Under the pieces are notes generated by a model. It did not search any database and was not told where the DNA came from. It saw only the letters and a program-made list of their open reading frames with translations. A program made the translations under genes and the position numbers. Positions 1 through 16,551 of a stretch of 64,000 bases of DNA are shown here, in pieces; the stretch's first letter is position 1, and each line of letters starts with the position of its first letter. The stretch lies in the NCBI RefSeq assembly GCF_030019515.1, contig NZ_JASEEQ010000010.1, forward strand, positions 62,001 to 126,000. The letters run 5' to 3'. The DNA is from Nocardioides sp. (lineage in GTDB: Bacteria > Actinomycetota > Actinomycetes > Propionibacteriales > Nocardioidaceae).

Positions 1-1050
1 GTCGAAGTAGTCCAGCACCCCGCGCCACACGCCGTAGATGGAGCGGTGCGCCTCGTCGACGATCACCAAATCGAAGGTCTCTGGTGGCAGATCGGGGTTG
101 TAGGAGACGGTCACCGGGGCGTCGGGGACGAAGCCGTCCAGCCCCGGATCGTCCTCGCCACTGACCTCCGCACCCTGCAGTGCCTTGAACACCCGCTGGA
201 TCGTCGAGATCACCACGTTGGAGGAGCCGAGCATCCCGGCGCTGCTGAGCTTGTCGACGTTGTAGATCTCGGTGAACCGGCGGCCGTCGTCGGGGGCGCG
301 GTAGTTCTGGAACTCCGCCAGCGTCTGGTCGGCCAGGTTGTTGCGGTCGACCAGGAACAGGACCCGGTTGAACCCACCGTGCTTGAGCAGGCGGTAGGAC
401 TGCGTGACGGCGGTGTAGGTCTTGCCGGCGCCGGTCGCCATCTGGACCAGGCTGCGCTTGAACCGCTGCTCGGCCAGGCTCCGCTCGACACCATGGATCG
501 CCTCGATCTGGGCCGGGCGCAGGGGAGTGGTGTCCAACTGGGGCAGTGCGCGCACCTTGCCGCGCCAGGTCGGTTCCTGGGGACTGGCTTCGGCGTCGCG
601 CAGGATGCGGGCGAAGGTCGAGGGCTTGGGGAAGGCGAAGAGCCTGCGTGCTCGCGGCTCGGGGTCGTAGCCACAGGTGTAGTGGATCTCCGTGCCCGAC
701 GCCTCGAACACGAACGGCAGCCGGCCATCGACCGTGAGTGCCTTGAGGCGTACGTCGGCGGGGAGCCCTTCGGCGTACATCGCCGACTGCCACTCGACGC
801 CTGACAACGGAGTCCCTTCGGGCTTGGCCTCGATGACGCCGACGGCCGACTTGTCGACGTACAACAGGTAATCAGCGCGACCGTGACCCGCAGCCATGGT
901 CGACTCGCGTACGGCGACGCCCTGGGCGGCGAACAGGTTCAGGTTCTTCTTGTCCTGCACTACCCAGCCGGCGGCGACGAGCTGCTTGTCGATGAGCACC
1001 CGGGCACGCTGCTCCGCCGCAAGGCGCAGTTCGTCGTCCCCGTTGGTCAT
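1..1050 (-). CDS. hsdR: Type I restriction enzyme R subunit (HsdR), N-terminal 350 residues, cut by the window edge
   Basis: Motor and nuclease subunit of a type I restriction-modification complex, which translocates and cuts unmodified DNA. The frame is open from ATG at 1050 to the window edge. An N-terminal nuclease domain shows D60, then E74 and K76 in IEAKPEG, the PD-(D/E)xK signature of HsdR. It is followed by a Walker A motif MATGAGKT at about 204-211 and the DEAH box in IVDEAHRS at about 332-335. The helicase C-terminal half and any hsdS/hsdM genes lie outside the window to the left. Divergent from the gene at 1164. Family assignment is secure; an SSL2-like helicase of another restriction class is the only realistic alternative. 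Confidence 0.9.
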   Translation of the reverse strand, partial: MTNGDDELRLAAEQRARVLIDKQLVAAGWVVQDKKNLNLFAAQGVAVRESTMAAGHGRADYLLYVDKSAVGVIEAKPEGTPLSGVEWQSAMYAEGLPADVRLKALTVDGRLPFVFEASGTEIHYTCGYDPEPRARRLFAFPKPSTFARILRDAEASPQEPTWRGKVRALPQLDTTPLRPAQIEAIHGVERSLAEQRFKRSLVQMATGAGKTYTAVTQSYRLLKHGGFNRVLFLVDRNNLADQTLAEFQNYRAPDDGRRFTEIYNVDKLSSAGMLGSSNVVISTIQRVFKALQGAEVSGEDDPGLDGFVPDAPVTVSYNPDLPPETFDLVIVDEAHRSIYGVWRGVLDYFD

Positions 1051-1163
1051 AACGGGGCAAGGCTAACCGCCAACAACGGGACAGGCAGGGCTTCTGTGGC
1101 CACTTGCGGGCAGATCGCGGCCCGCGGTCCCTGGTGTCGGCGGCTGCTGCGAGAGTCTGCGTC

Positions 1164-1670
1164 ATGGTGTCGAACGACGAGAGTTGGATAGAACCGTCTC
1201 AAGCCGAGGGCGTCCGCCGCGATGCGATAGCGCTCGCCAAGTTTGCTGTCACGTCTCCGGACCTCCGAGACGTCACGCGTAAAGAAGTGCTCAGCAAGTA
1301 CGTCCTGATCCTCCTCACGCACGGGACTTCGAACGGCAAATACGGCACCCGCTATCGCTCGGCGGATGCCTTGGGCGTGACGGACCCAGCGCTGCTAGAG
1401 CATGAGCACGTCTACCCACGCAAGTGGCTGATAGAGCAGATGCTCGCCGAGCCCAGTGCGGTCGAGATGGTCCTGACTCACTGTGCCCTGGCCTGCACGG
1501 TGACCGAGGCCGAGCACCGCAGGCTCGCCGCCGCTGAGCGGGCCAACCCCGGACTGACTGGCTGGGAGCGGTACCACGCGGCAGGTGTTGCGGTCACTGA
1601 CCTGGCGACCGGCGAAGTGGTCCCGCAATCGGTGGGCCGTCGACCGGTGTTGCCCCATGAGCAACCGTGA
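1164..1670 (+). CDS. Hypothetical protein with HNH-like Cys/His arrangement
   Basis: 168 residues; function not recognised. I chose ATG 1164 (MVSNDESW) because the codons upstream read as low-complexity antisense of the divergent leader. The middle carries EHEHVYPRKWL, and about 20 residues later HCALACTVTEAEHRRL. The spacing of the histidines, the cysteine and the EH pair recalls a degenerate HNH/McrA nuclease core, but a complete metal-binding set is not visible. It sits between hsdR and an excisionase-like gene, so a link to the restriction island is plausible. Codon usage is less GC3-biased than the housekeeping genes, consistent with accessory DNA. Confidence 0.55.
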   Translation: MVSNDESWIEPSQAEGVRRDAIALAKFAVTSPDLRDVTRKEVLSKYVLILLTHGTSNGKYGTRYRSADALGVTDPALLEHEHVYPRKWLIEQMLAEPSAVEMVLTHCALACTVTEAEHRRLAAAERANPGLTGWERYHAAGVAVTDLATGEVVPQSVGRRPVLPHEQP

Positions 1671-1863
1671 AGACCACGCCTGTACGTGCCCGGCGCGCGA
1701 ATTGGGCGGCCAAAAAGATTCCTGCAGGTGGGGAACTAGCCTCCTGAGCTGTGGGTTGAAGTGGGCGATAATCGGTCTGAGGCCACCGGTTGTAGCGGTG
1801 GCCACTCGCATCGACTCGCTGGCCATTAGGGGTAGGACCAACCCCGACAGGCAGGAGCCGACC

Positions 1864-2088
1864 ATGACCGAGACCCTCCACACTGACGTTCCCCTCCGCG
1901 CCCAGCTCATGACGATCGAGGAGGTCGCCGAGCTGCTCCGGATGCCCGTCGCGACACTGCGCTACTGGCGCGTGCTCGACAGCGGGCCGTGCGGCTTCAT
2001 CATCGGGCGGCGCCTGCGCTACTGGCGCCACGACGTCCTGGCTTGGCTCGAAGCCCAGCGCGAGTCCACAGGGTCCGGAGCCGCCTGA
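1864..2088 (+). CDS. Small helix-turn-helix protein, excisionase-like
   Basis: 74 residues from ATG 1864, preceded by AGGAG at 1853-1857. It contains a MerR/excisionase-type helix-turn-helix: LMTIEEVAELLRMPVATLRY followed by GRRLRYWRHDVLAWLEAQ. This is the usual layout of actinobacterial excisionase-family (AlpA/Xis-like) proteins, which bind DNA next to an integrase. It lies about 60 bp upstream of the integrase reading frames on the same strand, the standard xis-int order of integrative elements. Likely role: recombination directionality factor or element regulator. The family is clear; the excision role is inferred from position. Confidence 0.8.
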   Translation: MTETLHTDVPLRAQLMTIEEVAELLRMPVATLRYWRVLDSGPCGFIIGRRLRYWRHDVLAWLEAQRESTGSGAA

Positions 2089-2149
2089 TCTATCCACAGG
2101 AGCCGCGGTCGCTGTCGCCAGGACAGGCGACTGGCGCTACGGCGGACCC

Positions 2150-2278
2150 ATGAGCAGGAAACCCCGAACCCTCCCGCGCCAGCGGCGCAACCAGCGCGGC
2201 GCCGTCGAAGACCGCTGGCGCAAGCGCATCAAGGACACCGACGGCAACACCATCGAGGTCCCGTCGCGGGCAAGGTGA
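2150..2278 (+). pseudogene. N-terminal segment of the integrase in a different frame
   Basis: 42 codons from ATG 2150 to TGA 2276-2278. The product ends ...KDTDGNTIEVPSRAR, which matches the start of actinobacterial tyrosine integrases, where the text continues into a WRxRYxDxxGxE strand. That continuation (TRWRARYVDDAG) is present immediately afterwards, but in the next frame. The most economical reading is a one-base indel near 2260-2276. An alternative is genuine translational coupling, because TGA overlaps a GTG in GTGA at 2275-2278. A sequencing error cannot be excluded. Confidence 0.65.
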
Positions 2279-3315
2279 CGCGCTGGCGCGCGCGGTACGT
2301 AGACGACGCCGGTCGTGAGCACACCCGCGCCTTCGACCGGAAGGTCGACGCGCAGAAGTGGATCGACAAGCAGCTCTCCGCGCTGCTGCGCGGTGACCAC
2401 GTCGTACCCAAGGACGCCAAACTGACTGTGGGGGAGTGGTGCGACAAGTGGCTGGCCGGCTACGGCACCCGCCGCAGGTCGACCGTTCGCCAGGCCGAGG
2501 TTCACCTCAAGATCATCAAGGCTCACTTCGGCTCGGTGCCGCTGTCGGCGATCAAGCCTTCCGACGTGCGCGCCTGGACGGCCACCCTCAAGGACGAAGG
2601 CCGCGCCGACTCCTACATCTACGCGCTGTACTCCCGGTTCTCCCAGCTCTTCACCGACGCGGTCCACGACGGCCTCGTCGTCCGCAACCCCTGCTCGCGG
2701 CGCACCTCACCCGGCATGGGTCGGCAGCGGGCGTACGTCGCGACCACCCAACAGGTCTGGGCGCTCTACGACGCGGTGCCGCCCGGCGTACGTCCCGCGA
2801 TCCTGCTCGGCGCCCACGCCGGGCTGCGTCTCGCCGAGGCGGCCGGGCTTCGGGTCGAGGACATCGACTTCGCGACCGGGGTGATCTCGCCGAGCGTGCA
2901 GTGGGTCGACGAGCCGCTGAAGTCCGAGACCAGCCGACGATCCATTCCGATCCCCAGGGACATGGCGCACCTGCTCGCGGAAGCGGTGCGGCTCGGCAAC
3001 GGCACCCACGTCGTGAGCGATCAATGGGGCGACCCGGCGGGGCCGTGGACGATAGAGCGCGCGGTCCGCGCAACACGGACCCAGGTCGGGCTGCCGGACG
3101 ACTTCCGGTTCCACGACCTGCGGCACTACTTCGCTTCGCTGCTCATCGCATCGGGGCTCGACGTCAAGGTCGTTCAGGCGCGGCTGAGGCACGCCTCGAC
3201 CAAGACCACCCTCGACACCTACGGCCACCTCTGGCCGGACCGGGATGAATCCTCCCGAGCGGCGGTGGCGGCGGTGTACCGCGAGCGGACTCCAAGCGAC
3301 GGCTCAGCTGGTTGA
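2275..3315 (+). CDS. Tyrosine recombinase / phage-type integrase (frameshifted N-terminus)
   Basis: 346 residues from the GTG at 2275. Site-specific recombinase of the lambda-integrase family. An N-terminal Arm-binding-like strand (RWRARYVDDAG) and a SAM-like core-binding domain (about 50-150) precede the catalytic domain. Catalytic residues visible are R185 in HAGLRLAEAAGL, H280 and R283 in HDLRHYF, H306 in RLRHAS and nucleophile Y316 in DTYGHLWPD, so the active site is complete. The first about 40 residues lie in another frame (2150-2278). It follows an excisionase-like gene and converges with the QatB/QatC-like operon, marking the island as mobile or formerly mobile. Activity depends on whether the frameshift is real. 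Confidence 0.85.
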   Translation: MTRWRARYVDDAGREHTRAFDRKVDAQKWIDKQLSALLRGDHVVPKDAKLTVGEWCDKWLAGYGTRRRSTVRQAEVHLKIIKAHFGSVPLSAIKPSDVRAWTATLKDEGRADSYIYALYSRFSQLFTDAVHDGLVVRNPCSRRTSPGMGRQRAYVATTQQVWALYDAVPPGVRPAILLGAHAGLRLAEAAGLRVEDIDFATGVISPSVQWVDEPLKSETSRRSIPIPRDMAHLLAEAVRLGNGTHVVSDQWGDPAGPWTIERAVRATRTQVGLPDDFRFHDLRHYFASLLIASGLDVKVVQARLRHASTKTTLDTYGHLWPDRDESSRAAVAAVYRERTPSDGSAG

Positions 3316-3548
3316 TGGATAGTTATGGGTCTATAAGCAGGGACGGCATTCGAGGCGGCCTCGAGGGTCTTGACATGTCACCGACGGCGGCCGCCCCCTT
3401 TAGCCCAGTCAGCCGCACTTGACGGGGGTCTGAGATCCGCATGGATCTGCCGATGAGCGGGGGTGGCGGAAGCGTGCGGATTTGAAGTCATTGAGCGGAG
3501 GACGACGTGATCGAACCTGCGCACCCGGTGGGTGAGGATCGCCCCGGC

Positions 3549-4157
3549 TCAGCGTGCGATTTCCGCGACCAGGCGGGTGACGCGCGGCAGCTCGGCGTTA
3601 CAAGCATCTGCTGGAGCGAAGTGCGTTCCTCCGGTGCGCAGGTGCCAGACCTCGACGCCGATGACCCGGCCCTCGCCCAGTTCTTCTTCGAGGGCGAGGA
3701 AGGCTGGGACGGCGTACCGCACTGCCAGCTCGGCGGTGAGAGGCGCGAGGTCCCAGAGCGCGATGCGGCCAACGTAGCCTTCCTCGTCGAGCAGAACCGC
3801 GTCCACGTGCGCTCCCACGACGTGCGTGCCGATGCCGACGTCATGCCTGAGGTCGACGGCGAAGGCGTCGCGTCCGTCCCGCTGGGCCAACTGGATGTAC
3901 CGCTCGAAGCAGGTGACGATTGCGCTCGCCCAACCTCGAGCCTGGGCGGATCCCGAGGGACCCCAGTATGAACTGTCTGCGAAGGCGCGTCGGAGCCGTC
4001 GTCTAGCCTCCGTGACACCCTCGCGGTGGTACCTGACGATCGCCGCGGTGGCCGTCAACATCGGGGTGGGAAATCCCGGGTCTCCCATGGTCGAGCTGAG
4101 CGTGAAACCAGGCTGACGCACCCCCTTGCGGTAGATCCCGAACGTCAGCCGGGTCAT
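3549..4157 (-). CDS. Unrecognised protein, fourth gene of the QatB/QatC-like operon
   Basis: 202 residues; no family recognised with confidence. The start is ATG 4157 (MTRLTFGIYRKG), whose ATGA overlaps the stop of the QatC-like gene, so the two are translationally coupled. The C-terminal half reads as alternating beta strands with an acidic pair, GAHVDAVLLDEEGYVGRIAL, a long helix, then IGVEVWHLRTGG. This order resembles the RecB/Cas4-type PD-(D/E)xK fold, but the expected lysine after the third strand is missing, so it would be inactive or the resemblance is accidental. It is not TatD-like (no HxH start), hence not a QatD. Its job is presumably tied to the operon. Confidence 0.7.
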   Translation of the reverse strand: MTRLTFGIYRKGVRQPGFTLSSTMGDPGFPTPMLTATAAIVRYHREGVTEARRRLRRAFADSSYWGPSGSAQARGWASAIVTCFERYIQLAQRDGRDAFAVDLRHDVGIGTHVVGAHVDAVLLDEEGYVGRIALWDLAPLTAELAVRYAVPAFLALEEELGEGRVIGVEVWHLRTGGTHFAPADACNAELPRVTRLVAEIAR

Positions 4158-5455
4158 CGCAGGCCCGCTGGCACGCTGTGGGAGCTCAGGACCGCGTCCG
4201 CCTGCGCCGCCCAACGCCGGTGGAGGGCGATGCTGTCTGCGAGGTCCATCGCCGGTGCACCTGACAGCAGCTCGGGGTACTCGTACTCGAGGTCGACGTC
4301 GGGCAGTGAGCCGAGGTCGTCGATCAGGGCGACGAAGTGGGTGAGGTTGTCTCGCGCTCGTTGGTCGTCAAGTGCATGGACATCGTCGAACACGTCCACG
4401 TCGTAGGGAACGTCCGCGACGCCGTGTGTCTCGCACGAGATGCGGCGCATGATGCAGGGAGCGCAGTACCCGCAGTGCGTTCGCGTTCGACCGATCTGCC
4501 AGCACGAGACGGTGTGTTGCATGTCGTCTCCGTGGCCTAGGGCTACGGCGATCTCGACAACCTCAGGTTTCGTTCGGCTGACGAGAATGTTGTCGATCTC
4601 GAGGTCTCCGCCTAGCGCGGCTCTGGCCAGCTCCTTCATTCGAGCGACGATGGGTGGCGAGGCGGTGTGCGTGGACAGGGAGCCGATCCTCGCCGCGGTC
4701 AGCGGGATGTGGATCGCCATGATGCCGTTCTCGTTGAGGTACACCCGATTCGAGCCGCCGGCGATGGCGATAAGCGCGGCGACGCCCACGAAGAGGAGGG
4801 TGCGGCTGCGCTGCGACGACTCCGGACCCGGGAAAGGTTGGTTTGGTGCCTTGCCGGCGCCGATGTGGACGCGGACGGTGTCGGGCCGGATCTCGCGGAG
4901 GATTGACTCGACCTGGGTCTGCGCGGTGTTGACGGCGCCGCTTGCCGAGTGCGACAGGAGCAACGGACGCGCCCCGCGGTCTAGCAACTCAAGAGCGCCT
5001 GCGAAGGAGTCCTGCCCACCCGACAGCAGGGCTACTCCGTCGTGCTCAACGATCGGGGTTTTCGACTGCCGCGGTGGGGAGGATGGTGTCGGGTCCGCCT
5101 CAAAGTGAATGGTCAGGTCGTCCTGCGTCAGATCAGACCAGATCGACTCGAACTGGGGTCTTAGCGTCTCCCACCAAGCTGGATCGCGGACCGGGATGTA
5201 GGCGTCAATCTGTCGAGCCCACTCGACGTCGCCGCGACCCCGTTCGCAGGCCATGTCGACCGCGAATAAGGATCCTAGGATCGCCAGCCAGTCCATCTGT
5301 CGCTCGCTGAGCCGGTCGGGCAGACCCTCGACAGCGTCGTCGAAGCGCAGGCCGAAGTTGCGGGTGCCGTAAGGGGTGTCGCGCGTCCTGATCGTTAGGA
5401 CACCCGGTACAGGTGGCGCGGCGCAGTCGTTCACCACGACGGTGTACGCATTCAC
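4154..5455 (-). CDS. qatC: QatC-like QueC-family ATP-dependent enzyme
   Basis: 433 residues from GTG 5455, whose GTGA overlaps the stop of the upstream QatB-like gene. QueC enzymes use ATP to make 7-cyano-7-deazaguanine; QatC homologues act in anti-phage defence. The PP-loop SGGQDS is at 145-150. The zinc site is C318, then C328, C331 and C334 in HCGYCAPCIMRR, as in QueC. The extra about 140 N-terminal residues and the total length fit QatC rather than the about 230-residue housekeeping QueC. No queD, queE or folE lies nearby, arguing against queuosine synthesis. It is third in a four-gene overlapping operon. A type IV CBASS Cap9-like relative is an alternative, but no CD-NTase gene is present. 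Confidence 0.8.
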   Translation of the reverse strand: MNAYTVVVNDCAAPPVPGVLTIRTRDTPYGTRNFGLRFDDAVEGLPDRLSERQMDWLAILGSLFAVDMACERGRGDVEWARQIDAYIPVRDPAWWETLRPQFESIWSDLTQDDLTIHFEADPTPSSPPRQSKTPIVEHDGVALLSGGQDSFAGALELLDRGARPLLLSHSASGAVNTAQTQVESILREIRPDTVRVHIGAGKAPNQPFPGPESSQRSRTLLFVGVAALIAIAGGSNRVYLNENGIMAIHIPLTAARIGSLSTHTASPPIVARMKELARAALGGDLEIDNILVSRTKPEVVEIAVALGHGDDMQHTVSCWQIGRTRTHCGYCAPCIMRRISCETHGVADVPYDVDVFDDVHALDDQRARDNLTHFVALIDDLGSLPDVDLEYEYPELLSGAPAMDLADSIALHRRWAAQADAVLSSHSVPAGLR

Positions 5456-6165
5456 TGCGGGCTCTCCGGAAGCGCGCGACCGCGGGCGAACGCGTCGCCG
5501 ACCAGCGCGGCCCAACGCGCGCGGACGGCCGCTGCGGTCTGGGGAGCCTCGCCGATGCGACGGCCGATCGTGTCGGCCTCGGCGGCGAGCGACCGAGCCA
5601 GCCGCTTCGATTCGGCGATGGACATCCCCGGAACGTCGACTCCCCGCGACGTCCGCGTCTCGGACATCGCACCCATCTCGCGCGCGGTGACGTGGCGGGC
5701 GTACTGGCTGAGCAGCTCCCCAACGAAGGCACCGAGAAGCTGGCCAGGCTCACCTCGGCGCTCCTCAAATCGGGTCGCCGCTTCCTGAGGTGACAGTTGG
5801 GTGAGACTGACGTCGCCCGAGGTTGCGCGCATCAGGGCAGCTACGAGCGCCCGTTCCGCCAGCGGCAGAGCTGCGCTGGTGCCGTCCGTGTCGGCACTGG
5901 CCCGGCGCGCGTCGGCAGCCGCCTCCAGAATGGCGGTCTCCGGGCGCTCGACGGCACGCAGTCTGTCCGGCAACGACTCAAAACTCTGGACGACTTGGAC
6001 GGCGAAGGACGCGATCGACGGGTCGGCCAGTGCCGACTCCCACTCAGCGCCGGCGTTGAACAGCTCTGACCGGAGTCGCTCCAATGGCAGGTCCGAGCGC
6101 AAGGCGGTGGCGAACGCCTGCCACCGCGGCACCGCGGGCGACCGGAAACTTGTCGACGTACCCAC
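5452..6165 (-). CDS. qatB: QatB-like protein
   Basis: 237 residues starting MGTSTSFRSPAVPRW at ATG 6165. The N-terminus, Met-Gly-Thr-Ser followed by a short linker and Pro-x-Trp, matches what I recall of QatB proteins of the Qat defence system; the rest is mostly helical and acidic/alanine-rich, without catalytic motifs. Removal of the initiator Met would expose an N-terminal glycine. The stop overlaps the QatC-like start (GTGA), and its own start lies one base after the stop of the nuclease gene, so the products are probably made together and may interact. The family assignment rests on the N-terminus plus the invariant pairing with QatC. Confidence 0.7.
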   Translation of the reverse strand: MGTSTSFRSPAVPRWQAFATALRSDLPLERLRSELFNAGAEWESALADPSIASFAVQVVQSFESLPDRLRAVERPETAILEAAADARRASADTDGTSAALPLAERALVAALMRATSGDVSLTQLSPQEAATRFEERRGEPGQLLGAFVGELLSQYARHVTAREMGAMSETRTSRGVDVPGMSIAESKRLARSLAAEADTIGRRIGEAPQTAAAVRARWAALVGDAFARGRALPESPQ

Positions 6166-6166
6166 G

Positions 6167-7258
6167 TCAGGTCCGCGCGCTTTCGATCATGGCGTGGAAA
6201 TGCTGATCGTCGACGAGGCCGGCATCGAACAGGGCGGCCCAGGGTAAACGCTCGCGGTTTGCCGGGGTGATTTCGTCGCGTTCGACAGACAGAGCGGCCT
6301 CGGCGAGGTCGATGGCCCGTACGTAGGCCAGCGATAGGCCGGTGTCCTTGGTGAGTGCCTTGTGGCGGGCATGGAATGGGTGCGCGCGCCCGCTGCCTGC
6401 AAAGTTGGAGGAGAGCACCACCATGTACCGGAGCTCGTGCCCGGTGGACTGTGCCTCGGCGCGGCAGATGCCTGCGTACTCCTTGAACCGGAGGTAGTGG
6501 TCGGCGGTCATGGTGTACCCGTCCGCGGAGGCCTTGCAGTCAAGCAGGGCCGCGAGTGGCTCGCCTCCCCCTGGCCATCGGAGCAATGCGTCAGGGAGAC
6601 GCCTGCCCCGGGCTGCCTCGCCGTAACGCACCCCTCCGAGGCGGAACGTGTGGGTCAGCATCCTGAAGGTCAGCCTCTCCAACCAGTCCTGTGGAGCCGC
6701 GCCACCCTGGTGGAGCTCCGCCGGCAGCTCGTTGTGCGCGAGGACCGGCAGCCACCGCATGCCGACCGGATCGAGGTAGCGAGCGTCCTCGAAGAGGGCC
6801 CGCTGGTGTGCCAACCGGTCCATTGCCACGCTTGGCCGCTGGTCAGTCCAGGCCACCCGCGACGAGTGTTCAAAGCGTTCGATCAACTGCTCAGGTCCGA
6901 TGACCTCCACCGTCCGACCGACCGGAATGTCGCCGTGAGTGCCGAGAGGAGCCACGAGCCACCCGGCCACGTCGCCGTTCGCTGTAAGCGACTCGATGAA
7001 GCGCACGACGTCACGCGGCTCCACGGCCCTGGCCGCCACCCGGACGCGGATGGAGCGGCGTGCCCATAGCAGCTCCATCTCGGCGTGCAGCTCATCGTGG
7101 TCGGCACGACGTCGGTAGTCCGAGACCTCCGCTCCCGACTCCTCGACGAGGGCGTGCACTAACTTGCGCACCTCGGCTCGCGGCATCGCAGCCAGGTCGA
7201 GTGGTGTGAAACGACGGTGAGGTCGGGTGATCCCAGCTTTGCGCTCGCCTCCCGCCAT
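6167..7258 (-). CDS. FokI-like PD-(D/E)xK nuclease, first gene of the QatB/QatC-like operon
   Basis: 363 residues from ATG 7258. The C-terminal half has P222-D223 in RRLPDALL, then D240 and K242 in LLDCKASADGYTM, and then DHYLRFKEYA. This is the order and spacing of the FokI/Type IIS cleavage domain (PD...DxK with a GY motif and following helix). The N-terminal 30-130 region (RSIRVRVAARAV, then VAGWLVAP and VEVIGPEQLIERF) reads like an Mrr-type restriction endonuclease fold lacking obvious catalytic residues, perhaps for DNA binding. It replaces the QatA ATPase position expected before qatB. Likely the effector of the operon. The nuclease call is strong; the target is unknown. Confidence 0.75.
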   Translation of the reverse strand: MAGGERKAGITRPHRRFTPLDLAAMPRAEVRKLVHALVEESGAEVSDYRRRADHDELHAEMELLWARRSIRVRVAARAVEPRDVVRFIESLTANGDVAGWLVAPLGTHGDIPVGRTVEVIGPEQLIERFEHSSRVAWTDQRPSVAMDRLAHQRALFEDARYLDPVGMRWLPVLAHNELPAELHQGGAAPQDWLERLTFRMLTHTFRLGGVRYGEAARGRRLPDALLRWPGGGEPLAALLDCKASADGYTMTADHYLRFKEYAGICRAEAQSTGHELRYMVVLSSNFAGSGRAHPFHARHKALTKDTGLSLAYVRAIDLAEAALSVERDEITPANRERLPWAALFDAGLVDDQHFHAMIESART

Positions 7259-7265
7259 GACTGCG

Positions 7266-7296
7266 ATCCTAGGCAGCGGGAGGTCTTTTCCGGCAA
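7266..7296 (-). promoter_or_regulatory. Predicted sigma-A-type promoter giving a leaderless defence operon transcript
   Basis: On the minus strand TTGCCG (7296-7291) and TAGGAT (7271-7266) are separated by 19 bases. The -10 element is followed by seven bases and then directly by ATG 7258, so transcription would begin at or within a base or two of the start codon. No Shine-Dalgarno sequence can fit. Leaderless mRNAs with TANNNT about seven bases before the ATG are common in actinobacteria. Confidence 0.5.
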
Positions 7297-7646
7297 GACT
7301 GGCCTAACACCGCGTGTCCTCGGCTCGGCTGGCCAAGCAAACGCCGCGGGCGTACTTCGACGCCGACTCGGAAACCCGTCCGCCGTAACGACGACAGGCA
7401 CCATCCGCCGGAGCCGTTGCACGGCCGAGACAGTCAGCTGCAGAGCGACTGGCGAGAACCACCCGCTCGTGCCGCAGCTCGTGCACCGCCAAACCGCGGC
7501 ATTCCAGCCGCAAATTCTCCTGCCCCCGGAGCTCTCGCGAGCCGATGTGACGGGCTTCCGGCGGTGGGCGCTGTCGGATCCAACAGCGCGGCGGGCCAAT
7601 CTCCTGCGGAATCCCTGCGGAATTTGGCCCCTTTCGAGCCAACGAG
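7297..7646. other. Non-coding right margin of the defence island
   Basis: About 350 bases without a credible gene on either strand. It contains a direct repeat CCTGCGGAAT at 7603-7612 and 7614-7623, enclosed by an inverted repeat GGCCAA (7594-7599) / TTGGCC (7624-7629), and a small CTGT...ACAG hairpin near 7571. I could not find a matching att core beside the integrase. Confidence 0.5.
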
Positions 7647-7687
7647 AACGGCCCCCGATCCTGCGTTTCCGCAGGTCAGGGGCCGTT
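7647..7687 (-). terminator. Hairpin terminator downstream of glnA
   Basis: AACGGCCCC (7647-7655) pairs with GGGGCCGTT (7679-7687); inside it CCTGC (7660-7664) pairs with GCAGG (7671-7675) around a GTTTCC loop. It lies 19 bases past the glnA stop. No strong U-tract follows, as is usual in high-GC actinobacteria. Confidence 0.7.
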
Positions 7688-7705
7688 CCCGGGTTACGAC
7701 GTGGC

Positions 7706-9130
7706 TCAGATGTCGTAGTAGAGCTCGAACTCGTGCGGGTGCGGGCGCTGCTGCACCGGCAGGATCTCGTTCTGGCGCTTGTAGTCGATCCAGGTCTCGA
7801 TCAGGTCCGAGGTGAAGACGTTGCCGGCGGTGAGGAACTCGTGGTCGGCCTCGAGGTTGTTGAGCACCGCGTCGAGCGAGGCAGGGACCTGCTCGATGTC
7901 GGCCATCTCGTCCGGCGGGAGCTCGTAGATGTCCTTGTCGATCGGGGCGGCGGGCTCGATCTTGTTCTTGATGCCGTCGAGGCCGGCGAGCAGCAGCGCC
8001 GAGAAGGCGAGGTAGGGGTTCGCCGACGGGTCGGGGCAGCGGAACTCGATGCGCTTGGCCTTCGGGTTCGAGCCGGTGATCGGGATCCGGACGCAGGCCG
8101 AGCGGTTGCGCTGGGAGTACACCAGCGAGACCGGGGCCTCGAAGCCCGGCACCAACCGGTGGTAGGAGTTGACCGTCGGGTTGGTGAACGCCAGCAGCGA
8201 GGGGGCGTGCCGGAGCAGGCCGCCGATGTACCAGCGGGCGGTGTCGGAGAGGCCGCCGTACCCGGTCTCGTCGAAGAACAGGGGCGTGCCCTCGTCCCAG
8301 ATCGACTGGTGCACGTGCATGCCCGAGCCGTTGTCGCCGAAGATCGGCTTCGGCATGAAGGTCGCGGTCTTGCCGTTGCGCCACGCGACGTTCTTGATGA
8401 TGTACTTGAACTTCATCACGTCGTCGGCGGCCTTGAGCAGCTCGTCGAAGCGGTAGTTGATCTCGGCCTGGCCGGCGGTGCCGACCTCGTGGTGGGCCCG
8501 CTCGACGATGAGGCCGGACTTCTCCAGCTCGATGACCATCTCGTCGCGGAGCTCGCCGAAGTGGTCGGTCGGCGCGACCGGGAAGTAGCCGCCCTTGTAC
8601 TTCACCTTGTAGCCGCGGTTGTCGTTCTCGAACGCCGCGCCGGTGTTCCAGGCGCCGGCCGCGGAGTCGATCTCGTAGTAGCCGGCGTTGGCCTTGGTCT
8701 CGAACCGCACGTTGTCGAAGACGTAGAACTCCGCCTCGGGCGCGAAGTACGCCTTGTCGCCGATGCCGGTGGTGCCGAGGTAGGCCATCGCCTTGCGCGC
8801 GATGTTGCGCGGGTCGCGGGAGTAGGCCTCGCCGGTGAGCGGGTCGTGGATGAAGAAGTTGACGACCAACGTCTTCGCCGTGCGGAACGGGTCGATGTAC
8901 GCCGTGGTCGGGTCCGGGAACAGCGACATGTCGGACTCGTGGATCGCCTGGAAGCCACGGATCGACGAGCCGTCGAAGCCCAGCCCGTCGTCGAAGACCG
9001 ACTGGTCGAACGACGACACCGGGACCGTGAAGTGCTGCATGACGCCGGGCAGGTCGCAGAAGCGGACGTCGATCATCTCGACGCCCTCGTCCTTGATGTA
9101 CTTGAGCAGCTCGTCGCTGTTCTGGAACAT
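7706..9130 (-). CDS. glnA: Glutamine synthetase, type I
   Basis: 474 residues from ATG 9130, preceded by AGGAGG. Makes glutamine from glutamate, ammonia and ATP as a cytoplasmic dodecamer. The full GSI architecture is visible: beta-grasp start ([20 protein letters not shown]), DGSSIRGF, the ATP/metal segment [20 protein letters not shown] and [20 protein letters not shown]. The tyrosine in DIYELPPDE matches the adenylylation site, so control by GlnE-type adenylyltransferase is expected. Length and motifs fit the main actinobacterial GlnA1 rather than the GlnA2-4 paralogues. It is the first backbone gene right of the defence island. Confidence 0.97.
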
Positions 9131-9317
9131 TCGTCCTCCTTGGCTGCCACGCAGGGCGACGGCCGGAAAGTCAGTGAGCAAGGACCGGGGCGACGCTGCT
9201 CCGGGCGGTGGTCGCACCGTACGCACGGCCAGTTTCTCGACCGTATCCGGTTTGTTTCGGGCATGTAACAGGTGGCCGGTGACTGGACCGGCGGCGGTCC
9301 GCCCTACCCTGGCCGTC

Positions 9318-9737
9318 GTGACCGCACCCCAGGCCGCGCCCCAAGAGATCCCGTTCGAGACCGCCTCGTGGGGGCGCCGGGTGCTGGCGCTCGTCGTCGA
9401 CTGGTTCGCCTCGCTCCTGGTCGTGAGCCTGTTCGTCCCGGTGTTCGGCACCACCGGAGGCCCCGGCGGCCTCTACACGCTGCTGGTCTTCGTGGTCGAG
9501 TCCGCGGTGCTCACCGCCACCGTCGGCGGCTCGTTCGGCAAGATGGCCACCCGGCTGCGGGTGGTGCGCGTCGACGGCGGCGGGCACGTCGACCTGCTGC
9601 GGTCGTTCGGTCGCGCGATCGCCGTCGCGCTGGTCATCCCGCCGCTGGTGTTCCGGCCGGACCGCCGCGGCCTCCACGACGTGCTGGCCGGCACCGCCAC
9701 GGTCCCCCTCCAGGCCGCGCGTTCTCCCCAGGCCTGA
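9318..9737 (+). CDS. RDD family membrane protein
   Basis: 139 residues from GTG 9318 ([18 protein letters not shown]). RDD-domain proteins are small integral membrane proteins of unclear transport or stress function. The signature arginine and aspartates are seen in [15 protein letters not shown]; hydrophobic segments lie at about 20-45 and 55-80, and a basic loop [17 protein letters not shown] follows. The gene is divergent from glnA with a 187-base gap. Actinobacterial glnA is often flanked by an RDD gene, but no functional link is established here. Confidence 0.85.
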
Positions 9738-9809
9738 GCCCGCCGGGTTTGGTCCTTGGGCCCGCTGGGAGATGCTGGAGGCATCGACCACTCTTGGAAG
9801 GGCCCCGTC

Positions 9810-10661
9810 GTGACCAGCCTGAGCTCCGTACGCCGTGCCCTCGCAGCGCTCGCTGTCGTCCCGCTGCTCCTGAGCGGGCTTGCCGCGTGCGGCGACGACC
9901 CGGGCACCAACGCCGAGGACCCGGCAGCGACCTCCGCGTCCGGTGCGCCGGCCGCCGACCTGGCGCCGGGCGACGACGTCGACACCGGGGAGTTCGCCGA
10001 CCTCCTCGCGGCGGGGGTGGCGAGGATGGACACCGCCCACCTCACGATGAAGTCCGAGATGGGCGCCGCGGGGAGCATGACGGGGGAGGGCGACGCGGAC
10101 TACCGCGGCGACCAGCCGGTCGCGAGGATGACGATCACCTCCGGCTTCGTCGCGGACGGGATGGAGGCTCGCATCGTCGACGGTGCCCTGTACCTCAACC
10201 TCGGCCGGCTCAGCCACGACCGGTTCTGGAAGCTCGACCTCGACGACCCGGACAGCCCGCTGGGGGCGCTCGGATCGCAGCTCGACCCCCGCTCGGCCGT
10301 CGACCTGCTGGCGAAGGGACTCGAGAAGGTCACCTACGTCGGGCCCGACGGCGACCTGGCCCACTACCGCGCGAGCGTCGACCCGCAGGCCGTGCTCGAC
10401 GCCCTCGGCGGGCTGGGGTCGATGGGCGACCGGATGGGCGGGGCCGGCGCCCCGGCCGTGCCGGACTCCCTGGACTACGAGCTGTGGCTCGACGGCCAGG
10501 GCCGCGTGACGCGGCTGACCTCGACCATGGGCGACCTCGGGTCGGTCGAGATGACCATGTCCGACTTCGGGGCCGACGTATCCGTCGAGGCGCCGCCGGC
10601 CGACCAGGTCACCGAGATGCCGCCGATGTTCGGCCACCCGGGGACCGACCCGCAGGCCTGA
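9810..10661 (+). CDS. LprG/LppX-like lipoprotein
   Basis: 283 residues from GTG 9810. The signal peptide VRRALAALAVVPLLLSGLAAC ends in a lipobox (LAAC), so the mature protein should be a diacylglyceryl-modified, surface-anchored lipoprotein. A Ser/Ala/Pro-rich linker is followed by a mixed alpha/beta domain of the LolA/LprG type with repeated DTAHLTM, ARIVDGALYLNLG and YELWLDGQGRVTRL strands, the pattern of actinobacterial LppX_LprAFG proteins that carry lipids. Monocistronic; stops four bases before the convergent DUF4191 gene. The substrate is not evident. Confidence 0.8.
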   Translation: MTSLSSVRRALAALAVVPLLLSGLAACGDDPGTNAEDPAATSASGAPAADLAPGDDVDTGEFADLLAAGVARMDTAHLTMKSEMGAAGSMTGEGDADYRGDQPVARMTITSGFVADGMEARIVDGALYLNLGRLSHDRFWKLDLDDPDSPLGALGSQLDPRSAVDLLAKGLEKVTYVGPDGDLAHYRASVDPQAVLDALGGLGSMGDRMGGAGAPAVPDSLDYELWLDGQGRVTRLTSTMGDLGSVEMTMSDFGADVSVEAPPADQVTEMPPMFGHPGTDPQA

Positions 10662-14715: not shown

Positions 14716-16551
14716 TCAGACCTCGAACTGGCCCGACTCCAGGCGCTGCTTCACGTCGGTGAGGAAGCGGCCGGCGTCGGCGCCGTCGACCAGCTGGTGG
14801 TCGTAGGTGAGCGCCAGGTAGACCATGTAGCGCACCGCGATCGTCTCGCCGAGGTTCGGGTCGTCGATGACCACCGGCCGCTTCACGACCGCGCCCGGTC
14901 CCAGGATCGCGACCTGCGGCTTGTTCACGATCGGGGTGTCCCACAGGGCGCCGACGCTGCCGAGGTTGGTGATCGTGAACGTGCCGCCCGAGAGCTCGTC
15001 CGGTCCGATCTTGTTGGTCCGGGTGCGCTGCGCCACGTCGGCGATCTTCTTCGCCAGGCCCGCGATCGACAGGTCGCCCGCATCCTTGATGACCGGGGTG
15101 ATCAGGCCCTTCTCGGTGTCCACTGCGATCGCGAGGTTCTCGCGGTCGTAGTAGGTGACCTCGCCGGCCTCGGTGTCGATGGTCGCGTTCAGCGCCGGGT
15201 GGTGCTTGAGGGCGTCGATCGCGGCCTTCGCGAAGAACGGCAGGTACGACAGCTTGACGCCCTCCCGGGTCACGAAGTCCGCCTTCACCTCGTCCCGGAG
15301 CCGGGCGATGTTGGTGACGTCGACCTCGACCACCTGGGTCAGCTGGGCGGAGGTCTGCAGCGAGTCGACCATCCGCGAGGCGATGATCTTGCGCAGCCGC
15401 GACATCTTCACGGTCGTGCCGCGCAGCGGCGACGGCGCACCGGAGGCGGCCGGAGCCGACGGCGCGGCCGGTGCCGCTGGAGCAGCGGCCGGCGCTGCGG
15501 GTTGCTGGGCCTGCTGCTGGGCCTGCTCCTGGGCCTTGGCGGCGTCGAGCACGTCCTGCTTGCGGATCCTCCCCCCCACACCGGTGCCGGTGACGCTCGC
15601 CAGGTCCACACCGTGCTGGGCGGCCATCTTGCGCACCAGCGGCGTGACGTACCCCGGGCCGTCACCGCTCGGGGCCGACTGGGCCGCGGGCTGGGCAGCG
15701 GGCTGGGCGGCGGGTGCCGGCGCGGCCGGAGCAGCGGGAGCCGGCGGTGCCGCCTGCTCCTGACGGGCGGGCTCCGGTGCGGGGGTGGGCTCCGGCTCCG
15801 GCTCGGGCTCCGGTGCGGGGGCCGGCTCGGGCTCGGGCTCCGCGGCCGGCTGGGCCGGCGCGGGCTGGCCGGATCCGATCACGGCGAGCTCGGCGCCGAC
15901 CTCGACGGTCTCGTCCTCGGCGACCTTGATCTCGAGCAGGGTGCCGGCGATCGGCGAGGGGATCTCGGTGTCGACCTTGTCGGTGGAGACCTCGAGCAGC
16001 GGCTCGTCCATGGCGACCTCGTCGCCGACCGACTTCAGCCAGCGGGTGACGGTGCCCTCGGTGACCGACTCGCCGAGCGCGGGGAGGGTCACGGCCGTGC
16101 CCGAGCCACCGGTCGGCTTGGTCTCGGCGGCGGGCTTCTCGGCCTCCTCGGCGGCCGGGGCGGGCTGCTCGGCGGCGGCCGGCTCCTGCGCCTCCTGCTC
16201 CACGGGCTCCGGCTCCGGCTCGGGCTCGGGCTCGGCCTGCGGCTCGGGCTGTGCCTCGGCCTGCGGCTCGGCCTGCGCGCCGCCGGCATCGCCGGCATCG
16301 CCGGAGGACTCTCCGGCATCACCGATCACCGCCAGGACGGCGCCGACCTCGACGGTGTCGTCCTCGTTGGCCCGGATCTCGAGCAGGGTGCCGGCGATGG
16401 GCGAGGGGATCTCGGTGTCGACCTTGTCCGTGGAGACCTCCAGCAGCGGCTCGTCGACGGCCACCGCGTCACCGACCTGCTTGAGCCAGCGGGTGACGGT
16501 GCCTTCGGTGACGGACTCGCCGAGTGCCGGCAGGTTGACTTCGGTGGCCAA
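14716..16551 (-). CDS. sucB: Dihydrolipoamide acyltransferase (E2) of a 2-oxoacid dehydrogenase complex
   Basis: 611 residues from ATG 16551. Two lipoyl domains (about 1-77 and 155-230) each carry the lipoylated lysine in [14 protein letters not shown]. They are joined by Ala/Pro/Glu-rich swinging-arm linkers, then an E3/E1-binding domain ([17 protein letters not shown]) and a catalytic core with the active-site DHQLVDGAD. The architecture matches the E2 that actinobacteria use in 2-oxoglutarate and pyruvate dehydrogenase supercomplexes; which acyl group is moved cannot be decided from this window because no E1 gene is present. lpdA (E3) sits just upstream, and lipA/lipB nearby supply the cofactor. 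Confidence 0.9.

Follow-up and report, generated by a model that had tools for sequence, protein, structure and literature searches.

By the window we mean the whole stretch of 64,000 nucleotides that was analysed. Its minus strand carries a compact four-gene operon (7258-3549, with spacings of +1, -4 and -4 nt), in which a FokI-like nuclease gene, a qatB-like gene, qatC and a small gene follow one another in that order. The genes and features of the locus are:

6167..7258, minus strand: FokI-like nuclease gene, 363 aa, with the motif RGRRLPD(x)16DCKASADGY (D223, D240, K242)
5452..6165, minus strand: qatB-like gene, 237 aa, GTG start, encoding the putative substrate (N-terminus; fold match to 9y02_A)
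6154..6165, minus strand: Met-Gly-Thr-Ser motif, codons 1-4 of the qatB-like gene (MGTS census; synonymous codon variation)
4154..5455, minus strand: qatC, 433 aa, GTG start (NF041925, PADLOC QatC, Pfam QueC and a PDB QatC profile match)
5006..5023, minus strand: SGGQDS ATP pyrophosphate motif of QatC, residues 145-150 (sequence and QatC alignment)
4664..4672, minus strand: T262-H-T264 of QatC, equivalent to T278/T280 of Pseudomonas aeruginosa (QatC alignment)
4454..4504, minus strand: zinc-type cysteines of QatC, C318-x9-C328-xx-C331-xx-C334 (sequence and QatC alignment)
3549..4157, minus strand: fourth gene, 202 aa, ATG start (overlapping the stop of qatC in ATGA; found in each of the four operons described below)
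2275..3315, plus strand: phage-type tyrosine integrase, a mobile context (PF00589, 4.9e-20)
1846..2088, plus strand: HTH_17/excisionase-like protein adjoining the integrase (PF12728, 3.1e-10; start set by eye within the ORF 1585-2088)

The GTG start of qatB lies 1 nt past the stop of the nuclease gene, and the stop of qatB overlaps the start of qatC in the sequence GTGA (5455-5452). The N-terminus of the product is MGTSTSFRSPAVPRW; the MGTSTS start that the earlier note had read in this minus-strand ORF (6165-5452) is exact. The direct coupling to a gene with a PP-loop and a QueC-type zinc site, also described there, is confirmed by the GTGA overlap and by the SGGQDS motif and C318, C328, C331 and C334 of QatC. 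The window copy of the fourth gene has no family match in Pfam, NCBIfam or PADLOC, and sequence profiles of the fourth gene and of QatB have none in the PDB. The excisionase-like HTH protein and the tyrosine integrase beside the operon (1846-3315, plus strand) suggest an integrated element. No clear repeat that might mark att sites was found in positions 1-10000 of the window, where direct repeats are weak, and the sole tRNA gene of the window is a tRNA-Arg at 15725-15816.

The four genes occur in identical order, overlapping or spaced by 1 nt, in four genomes of different genera: the host, Actinoplanes lutulentus (L001), Virgisporangium ochraceum (L002) and G244 (L040), which belongs to the host's phylum but to a different class. 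The nearest named relatives of the window QatC are those of Actinoplanes and Virgisporangium (Micromonosporaceae, Actinomycetota), which makes an actinobacterial host probable. With the operon type called by QatC similarity (45-51% identity or E <1e-130), this QatC is found in one of 58 related genomes (the host only), two of 396 genomes of the phylum (host included) and two of 250 genomes of the Actinoplanes family. Of the 24 genomes matched in the phylum scan, 16 (E 3e-5 to 9e-4) were set aside on the assumption that they encode QueC or other PP-loop proteins; one of them, G099, is a QatC carrier that is thereby left out of the counts. G004 and G041 were likewise set aside in the scan of related genomes, and no QatC was found in the G004 stretch.

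The host's QatA and QatD have no match across the whole window, nor in L001, L002 and L040. Both genes are present at another locus of the host (L012; contig C2, 7830-12681), a second, ordinary qatABCD with its own MGTS QatB, where NF041923 to NF041926 each match (qatA below its own cut-off), and there are thus two QatBC pairs in one cell. Several loci of Micromonosporaceae, among them L117, L118, L120, L121 and L122, encode qatBC with nothing nearby that matches QatA or QatD of the host; it is possible that these pairs are stand-alone minimal systems.

The assignment of QatC is supported by NCBIfam NF041925 (199.4 bits, 8.5e-59, below the equivalog cut-off of 280), PADLOC QatC (8.8e-54) and Pfam QueC (6.4e-9), and a three-member profile retrieves the solved QatC chains from the PDB (5.9e-47 for 9vlk, and 2e-44). 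The SGGQDS ATP motif and the zinc cysteines are intact. At the pocket positions where QueC and Cap9 carry Tyr and Asp, the window protein has T262 and T264. The equivalent pair in 35 QatCs is T-x-T in 13, T-x-S in 17, S-x-S in three, S-x-T in one (a contig-end fragment) and neither in one (L133), so that Thr or Ser occupies both positions in 34 of 35 and Tyr/Asp in none. Both active-site threonines, T278 and T280, have been called invariant (PMC13279940); among the 35 aligned QatCs, Ser replaces the second in 20 and the first in four. The QatC-like protein of L133 (5723-7067) is accompanied by no upstream MGTS partner and lacks the T-x-T/S motif, and it may represent another branch of the QueC family. 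Plasmids hold 119 records with QatC relatives, all at <60% identity, and no match to the operon nuclease; viral contigs gave no confirmed relative of the window QatC, the nuclease or the host's other QatC, and phage records no QatC match.

The window QatB is recognised by no family model of Pfam, NCBIfam or PADLOC. PADLOC finds no match in the four-member QatB set either, and NF041924, which scores the host's second QatB (L012) at 131.5 bits, does not match the window protein at E up to 1. The name QatB is used here because of synteny with QatC, the N-terminus and a fold match, and not because of a family model. The fold comes from a single shallow AF2 model built from three sequences (pLDDT 76, ten helices), in which pLDDT at the N-terminus falls below 50 at residues 1-12 only. 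The top VIA match of this model is 9y02_A, the QatB of a QatB-QatC complex (Z 10.0, 185 residues, 4.2 A, 11% identity), followed by 9y01_A (Z 9.6), and the next unrelated chain scores Z 5.3. Plain Foldseek returned no match at E up to 0.001 and no QatB among the best 50 matches listed. As helical bundles can reach middling Z scores by chance, the fold match is strong but not absolute, and it is at this strength that the ORF 6165-5452 is predicted to have a QatB fold. Many QatBs are described as having a disordered N-terminal tail of 30-90 aa, and in P. aeruginosa QatB 63 tail residues are unresolved (PMC13279940). The model of the window protein shows no such long tail: its residue 13 aligns with residue 64 of P. 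aeruginosa QatB. With a modelled tail of around 12 residues, the QatB N-terminus may be unable to reach the active site in cis.

The census of N-termini comprised 35 QatC loci from 34 genomes (the host contributing two loci), and considered ORFs that end between 200 nt before and 700 nt after the start of the QatC open frame and have an in-frame start codon followed by GTS. Such an ORF adjoins the QatC start at 28 of 35 loci, or 29 of 35 with L128, which the filter missed, compared to two of 877 other ORFs of >=180 codons. The earlier note had proposed conservation of G2-T3-S4 as a check of its reading, and this conservation is upheld. The 28 ORFs all share GTS because they were selected on it; the codons vary. 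Start codons are ATG in 14, GTG in 12 and TTG in two, Gly is encoded by four different codons, Thr by four and Ser by six, and residue 5 is any of seven different amino acids. The free synonymous variation at the start, G2, T3 and S4 argues for conservation of the protein rather than of the DNA, and a DNA-level signal at MGTS was rejected on the grounds of this codon diversity. Across all loci, Thr3 is present in 30 of 35 and Ser4 in 29 of 35. The loci without an MGTS ORF are L046 and L116 (contig ends), L119 (MGTK), L125, L132 (broken qatA) and L133.

Conservation continues beyond the first four residues. A Trp falls within residues 13-25 in 27 of the 28 MGTS ORFs, exactly at 15 in 17 of them, and at residue 15-16 in the four-genome operon subfamily; conserved P16 and W18 have been reported for QatB (PMC13279940). 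In the four-member subfamily, for which the starts were the first in the ORF list, chosen without regard to the motif, M1, G2, T3, S4, S6, R8, R14 and W15 are invariant, that is, eight of the 15 N-terminal residues, compared to 20 of 222 elsewhere (Fisher p 5e-5). The pattern MGxxxS resembles the eukaryotic N-myristoylation motif. Bacteria are not known to have an N-myristoyltransferase, and myristoylation of the QatB MGTS was rejected for this reason.

The nuclease gene is tentatively assigned to the FokI type, with a putative PD-(D/E)xK core, from its relatives and its motif. Three of the four members match the FokI cleavage domain PF09254 (16.5-19.8 bits, best E 5.9e-4, cut-off 25), and the window copy does not match. 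D223, D240 and K242 are invariant in all four, and in the window copy their spacing equals that of D450, D467 and K469 of FokI. The AF2 model of the nuclease is poor (pLDDT 44.5), and the sequence profile has only chance-level matches in the PDB. The profile also matched partial, frame-broken or rearranged pieces in G099 (L056) and G112 (L058), in stretches that contain neither QatB nor QatC; these pieces, and weak matches in five other genomes, are excluded from the counts.

That the QatB glycine is the acceptor for QatC, with the MGTS motif, has already been proposed for qatABCD (PMC13279940). According to that paper, the G2D mutation of QatB abolishes defence, the QatB N-terminus has been modelled inside the QatC active site, QatC mutants S156A/S161A and T278/T280 lose defence, and QatBC alone suffices against lambda vir. 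The same source states that the QatBC reaction could not be reconstituted in vitro, and that 7-carboxy-7-deazaguanine (CDG) given to QatBC crystals was not seen (PMC13279940). In type IV CBASS, the QueC-fold enzyme Cap9 is reported to attach CDG to the glycine at the N-terminus of its partner CD-NTase (NDG deazaguanylation; PMC11996544), and the deazaguanylation proposal for QatBC has been taken up in a study in which qatA lies beside 34.3% of the QatC cluster (PMC13329287). The available parts of PMC13279940 and PMC13329287 contain neither a measured modification of any QatB nor a test of co-occurrence of QatC with QueD or QueE. Likewise, no nuclease-linked QatBC and no test of QatC/QueE co-occurrence was found in a non-exhaustive literature search judged by titles and abstract openings. 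On this coverage of the literature, what appears to be new here is the nuclease-linked QatBC operon, and the idea of the glycine acceptor is already known.

The window operon is like qatABCD in its predicted QatB fold, its MGTS start, its QatC with SGGxDS, zinc cysteines and T-x-T, and its adjacent overlapping genes. It differs in lacking qatA (KAP NTPase) and qatD (TatD), in that a FokI-like nuclease gene precedes qatBC and a small conserved gene follows it, and in having a QatB with a short tail that is unseen by NF041924 and a QatC with the zinc spacing C-x9-C. As in type IV CBASS, a QueC-fold enzyme is coupled to a partner that starts Met-Gly, but the partner has a predicted QatB fold and not that of a CD-NTase, and QatC lacks the Tyr/Asp that read deazaguanine; Pfam, NCBIfam and PADLOC found no other match to CBASS or CD-NTase families among the four operon proteins. 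QatC keeps the ATP motif and zinc cysteines of QueC, whereas it is much longer (433 aa, compared to 232 for the host QueC) and does not have the YPDC motif. The nuclease resembles the FokI cleavage domain (PF09254) in its putative D...DxK core, with DCK and then Gly-Tyr. Unlike FokI, it is linked to QatBC, with a weak domain match in the relatives and none in the window copy, and the same three databases gave no methyltransferase match among the four operon proteins.

Our preferred reading, to which we assign a probability of roughly 0.55, is that this is a QatBC immune operon in which Gly2 of QatB is joined to a carboxylate, in most cases probably not CDG, and the nuclease is thereby controlled. 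The FokI-like nuclease and the small protein would replace QatA and QatD in an operon of the QatBC type. Removal of Met would expose Gly2, as expected because the second residue is small. QatC would then bind QatB, and its ATP site would activate a carboxylate for coupling to the amine of Gly2, a step that we infer from QueC and Cap9 chemistry and from the effects of G2D and of active-site mutations reported for qatABCD. Both in this lineage and in the majority of the QatC carriers examined, this carboxylate is probably something other than CDG, since most of the genomes yielded no CDG synthase and the residues that would read CDG are Thr/Ser. One may speculate that QatB, in its tagged or untagged state, then permits the nuclease to cleave DNA, either that of the invader or that of the infected cell. 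The more specific claim that a dedicated FokI-like nuclease is under the direct control of modified QatB, in which case DNA cleavage would be switched on by a new class of N-terminal protein tag, is tentative, and we hold it to be somewhat less probable than its opposite.

The best-surviving alternative is that QatC attaches CDG itself to Gly2 of QatB, like Cap9 on the CD-NTase of type IV CBASS. The fold, the ATP site and the Met-Gly start are common to the two systems, the analogy has been drawn in print, and queC, queE and queD are present in the host genome. In the host they lie clustered with a FolE2-like gene (named by eye) on contig C33 (L013, 5423-7910), and this queC, a gene separate from qatC, scores 205 bits with TIGR00364. 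A second, weak QueC-like match is located near the cluster (C33:16972-17589). The host can therefore probably make CDG, and CDG stays in play in this cell, as in Virgisporangium. Against this alternative, the deazaguanine-pocket Tyr/Asp is T-x-T in the window QatC, and swapping T278/T280 to Y/D is reported to kill defence (PMC13279940). The CDG synthase QueE is also found in only seven of 34 QatC-carrying genomes, and it was not found in two of the four operon genomes.

The 34 genomes are the distinct members of two sets that share two genomes, with QueE in two of 12 in set 1 and six of 24 in set 2. In set 1, the host QueE as query matches the host and Virgisporangium only, which are also the only genomes with a canonical QueC above cut-off; QueC matches of G244, G082, G132 and G240 reach 20-27 bits only. 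TIGR03365 matches four of the 12, all below its cut-off: the host (43 bits), Virgisporangium (35), G421 (23) and G011 (21). The last two matched neither QueE query and were not counted. The same model gives 48-109 bits to five QueE-like proteins of set 2, and so should detect proteins of that type. Among the four operon genomes, the CDG pathway is present in the host and Virgisporangium; A. lutulentus and G244 (97% complete) show no QueE, and no QueC above cut-off. QueD exceeds the Pfam cut-off in six of the 12 (the host, Virgisporangium, Actinoplanes, G132, G080 and G240) and is absent in the other six. Actinoplanes has a PTPS relative that scores 33 bits with TIGR03367 (cut-off 89).

Set 2 consists of the 24 genomes that carry QatC in the sample of 250 from the Actinoplanes family. 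QueE is strong in two (G622 and G858) and QueE-like in four more (G640, G678, G680 and G700), and no QueE was found at E up to 1e-5 in the remaining 18. Dismissing the four as unrelated radical-SAM proteins was considered and rejected, the proteins being QueE-like; because of this, and because they lie beside queD in G640, G678 and G700, all four are counted as possible CDG makers. There is no significant association of QatC with QueE in set 2 (six of 24 carriers compared to 33 of 226 QatC-negative genomes, p 0.23), a count that includes G678 and G858, whose qat loci may be decayed, as carriers of QueE and is the weaker step of the co-occurrence analysis, as the single query sees the second QueE type weakly. 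Nor is the association with QueD significant in the draw of 396 genomes (four of eight QatC carriers compared to 157 of 388 others, p 0.72); adding the left-out G099, which has a QueD match, gives five of nine carriers.

These results suggest, from gene content and pocket residues, that deazaguanine is often not the group attached to QatB, which makes attachment of CDG an unlikely explanation, at about a quarter of the weight. Of the earlier note's suggestion that QatB is a deazaguanylated substrate, the acceptor half is strengthened by MGTS, the intact QatC and the predicted QatB fold, and the deazaguanine half is weakened by T-x-T and the scarcity of QueE. Against the view that the group is not CDG, deazaguanine may be imported or made by phage. 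Published work has yet to settle which group QatB receives from QatC (PMC13279940). Judging by the co-occurrence data, many natural hosts of QatC may be unable to make CDG, and if this is so, the search for the donor is redirected; carriers with no detected QueD, QueE and QueC would be clean hosts for such a search.

It has also to be considered that MGTS is a binding tag, the free N-terminus entering QatC and gating its ATPase or a reaction on another target. Conservation that extends past Gly (to Thr3 and Ser4) is consistent with a tag of this kind, as are the failure to reconstitute the reaction and the lack of a reported adduct in the available parts of PMC13279940. QatC nevertheless retains both the ATP motif of the PP-loop and the zinc cysteines, and mutation of the QatC active site is reported to abolish defence (PMC13279940), which makes a purely binding role decidedly improbable compared to the joining of Gly2 to a carboxylate. 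That the name QatB is wrong, and that MGTS either arose by chance or marks a signal in the DNA or for translation where the gene begins, would fit the silence of the family models and is highly implausible given the MGTS frequency over background, the many synonymous codons and the fold match.

Some qat loci found in the course of the searches may be decayed. At L132 (G678), QatA is matched in two different frames and an MGTS ORF was not seen, and at L135 (G858) the QatC matches are split over two frames. In G099, a QatC fragment (C179, L057, 2455-3753, minus strand) adjoins qatD.
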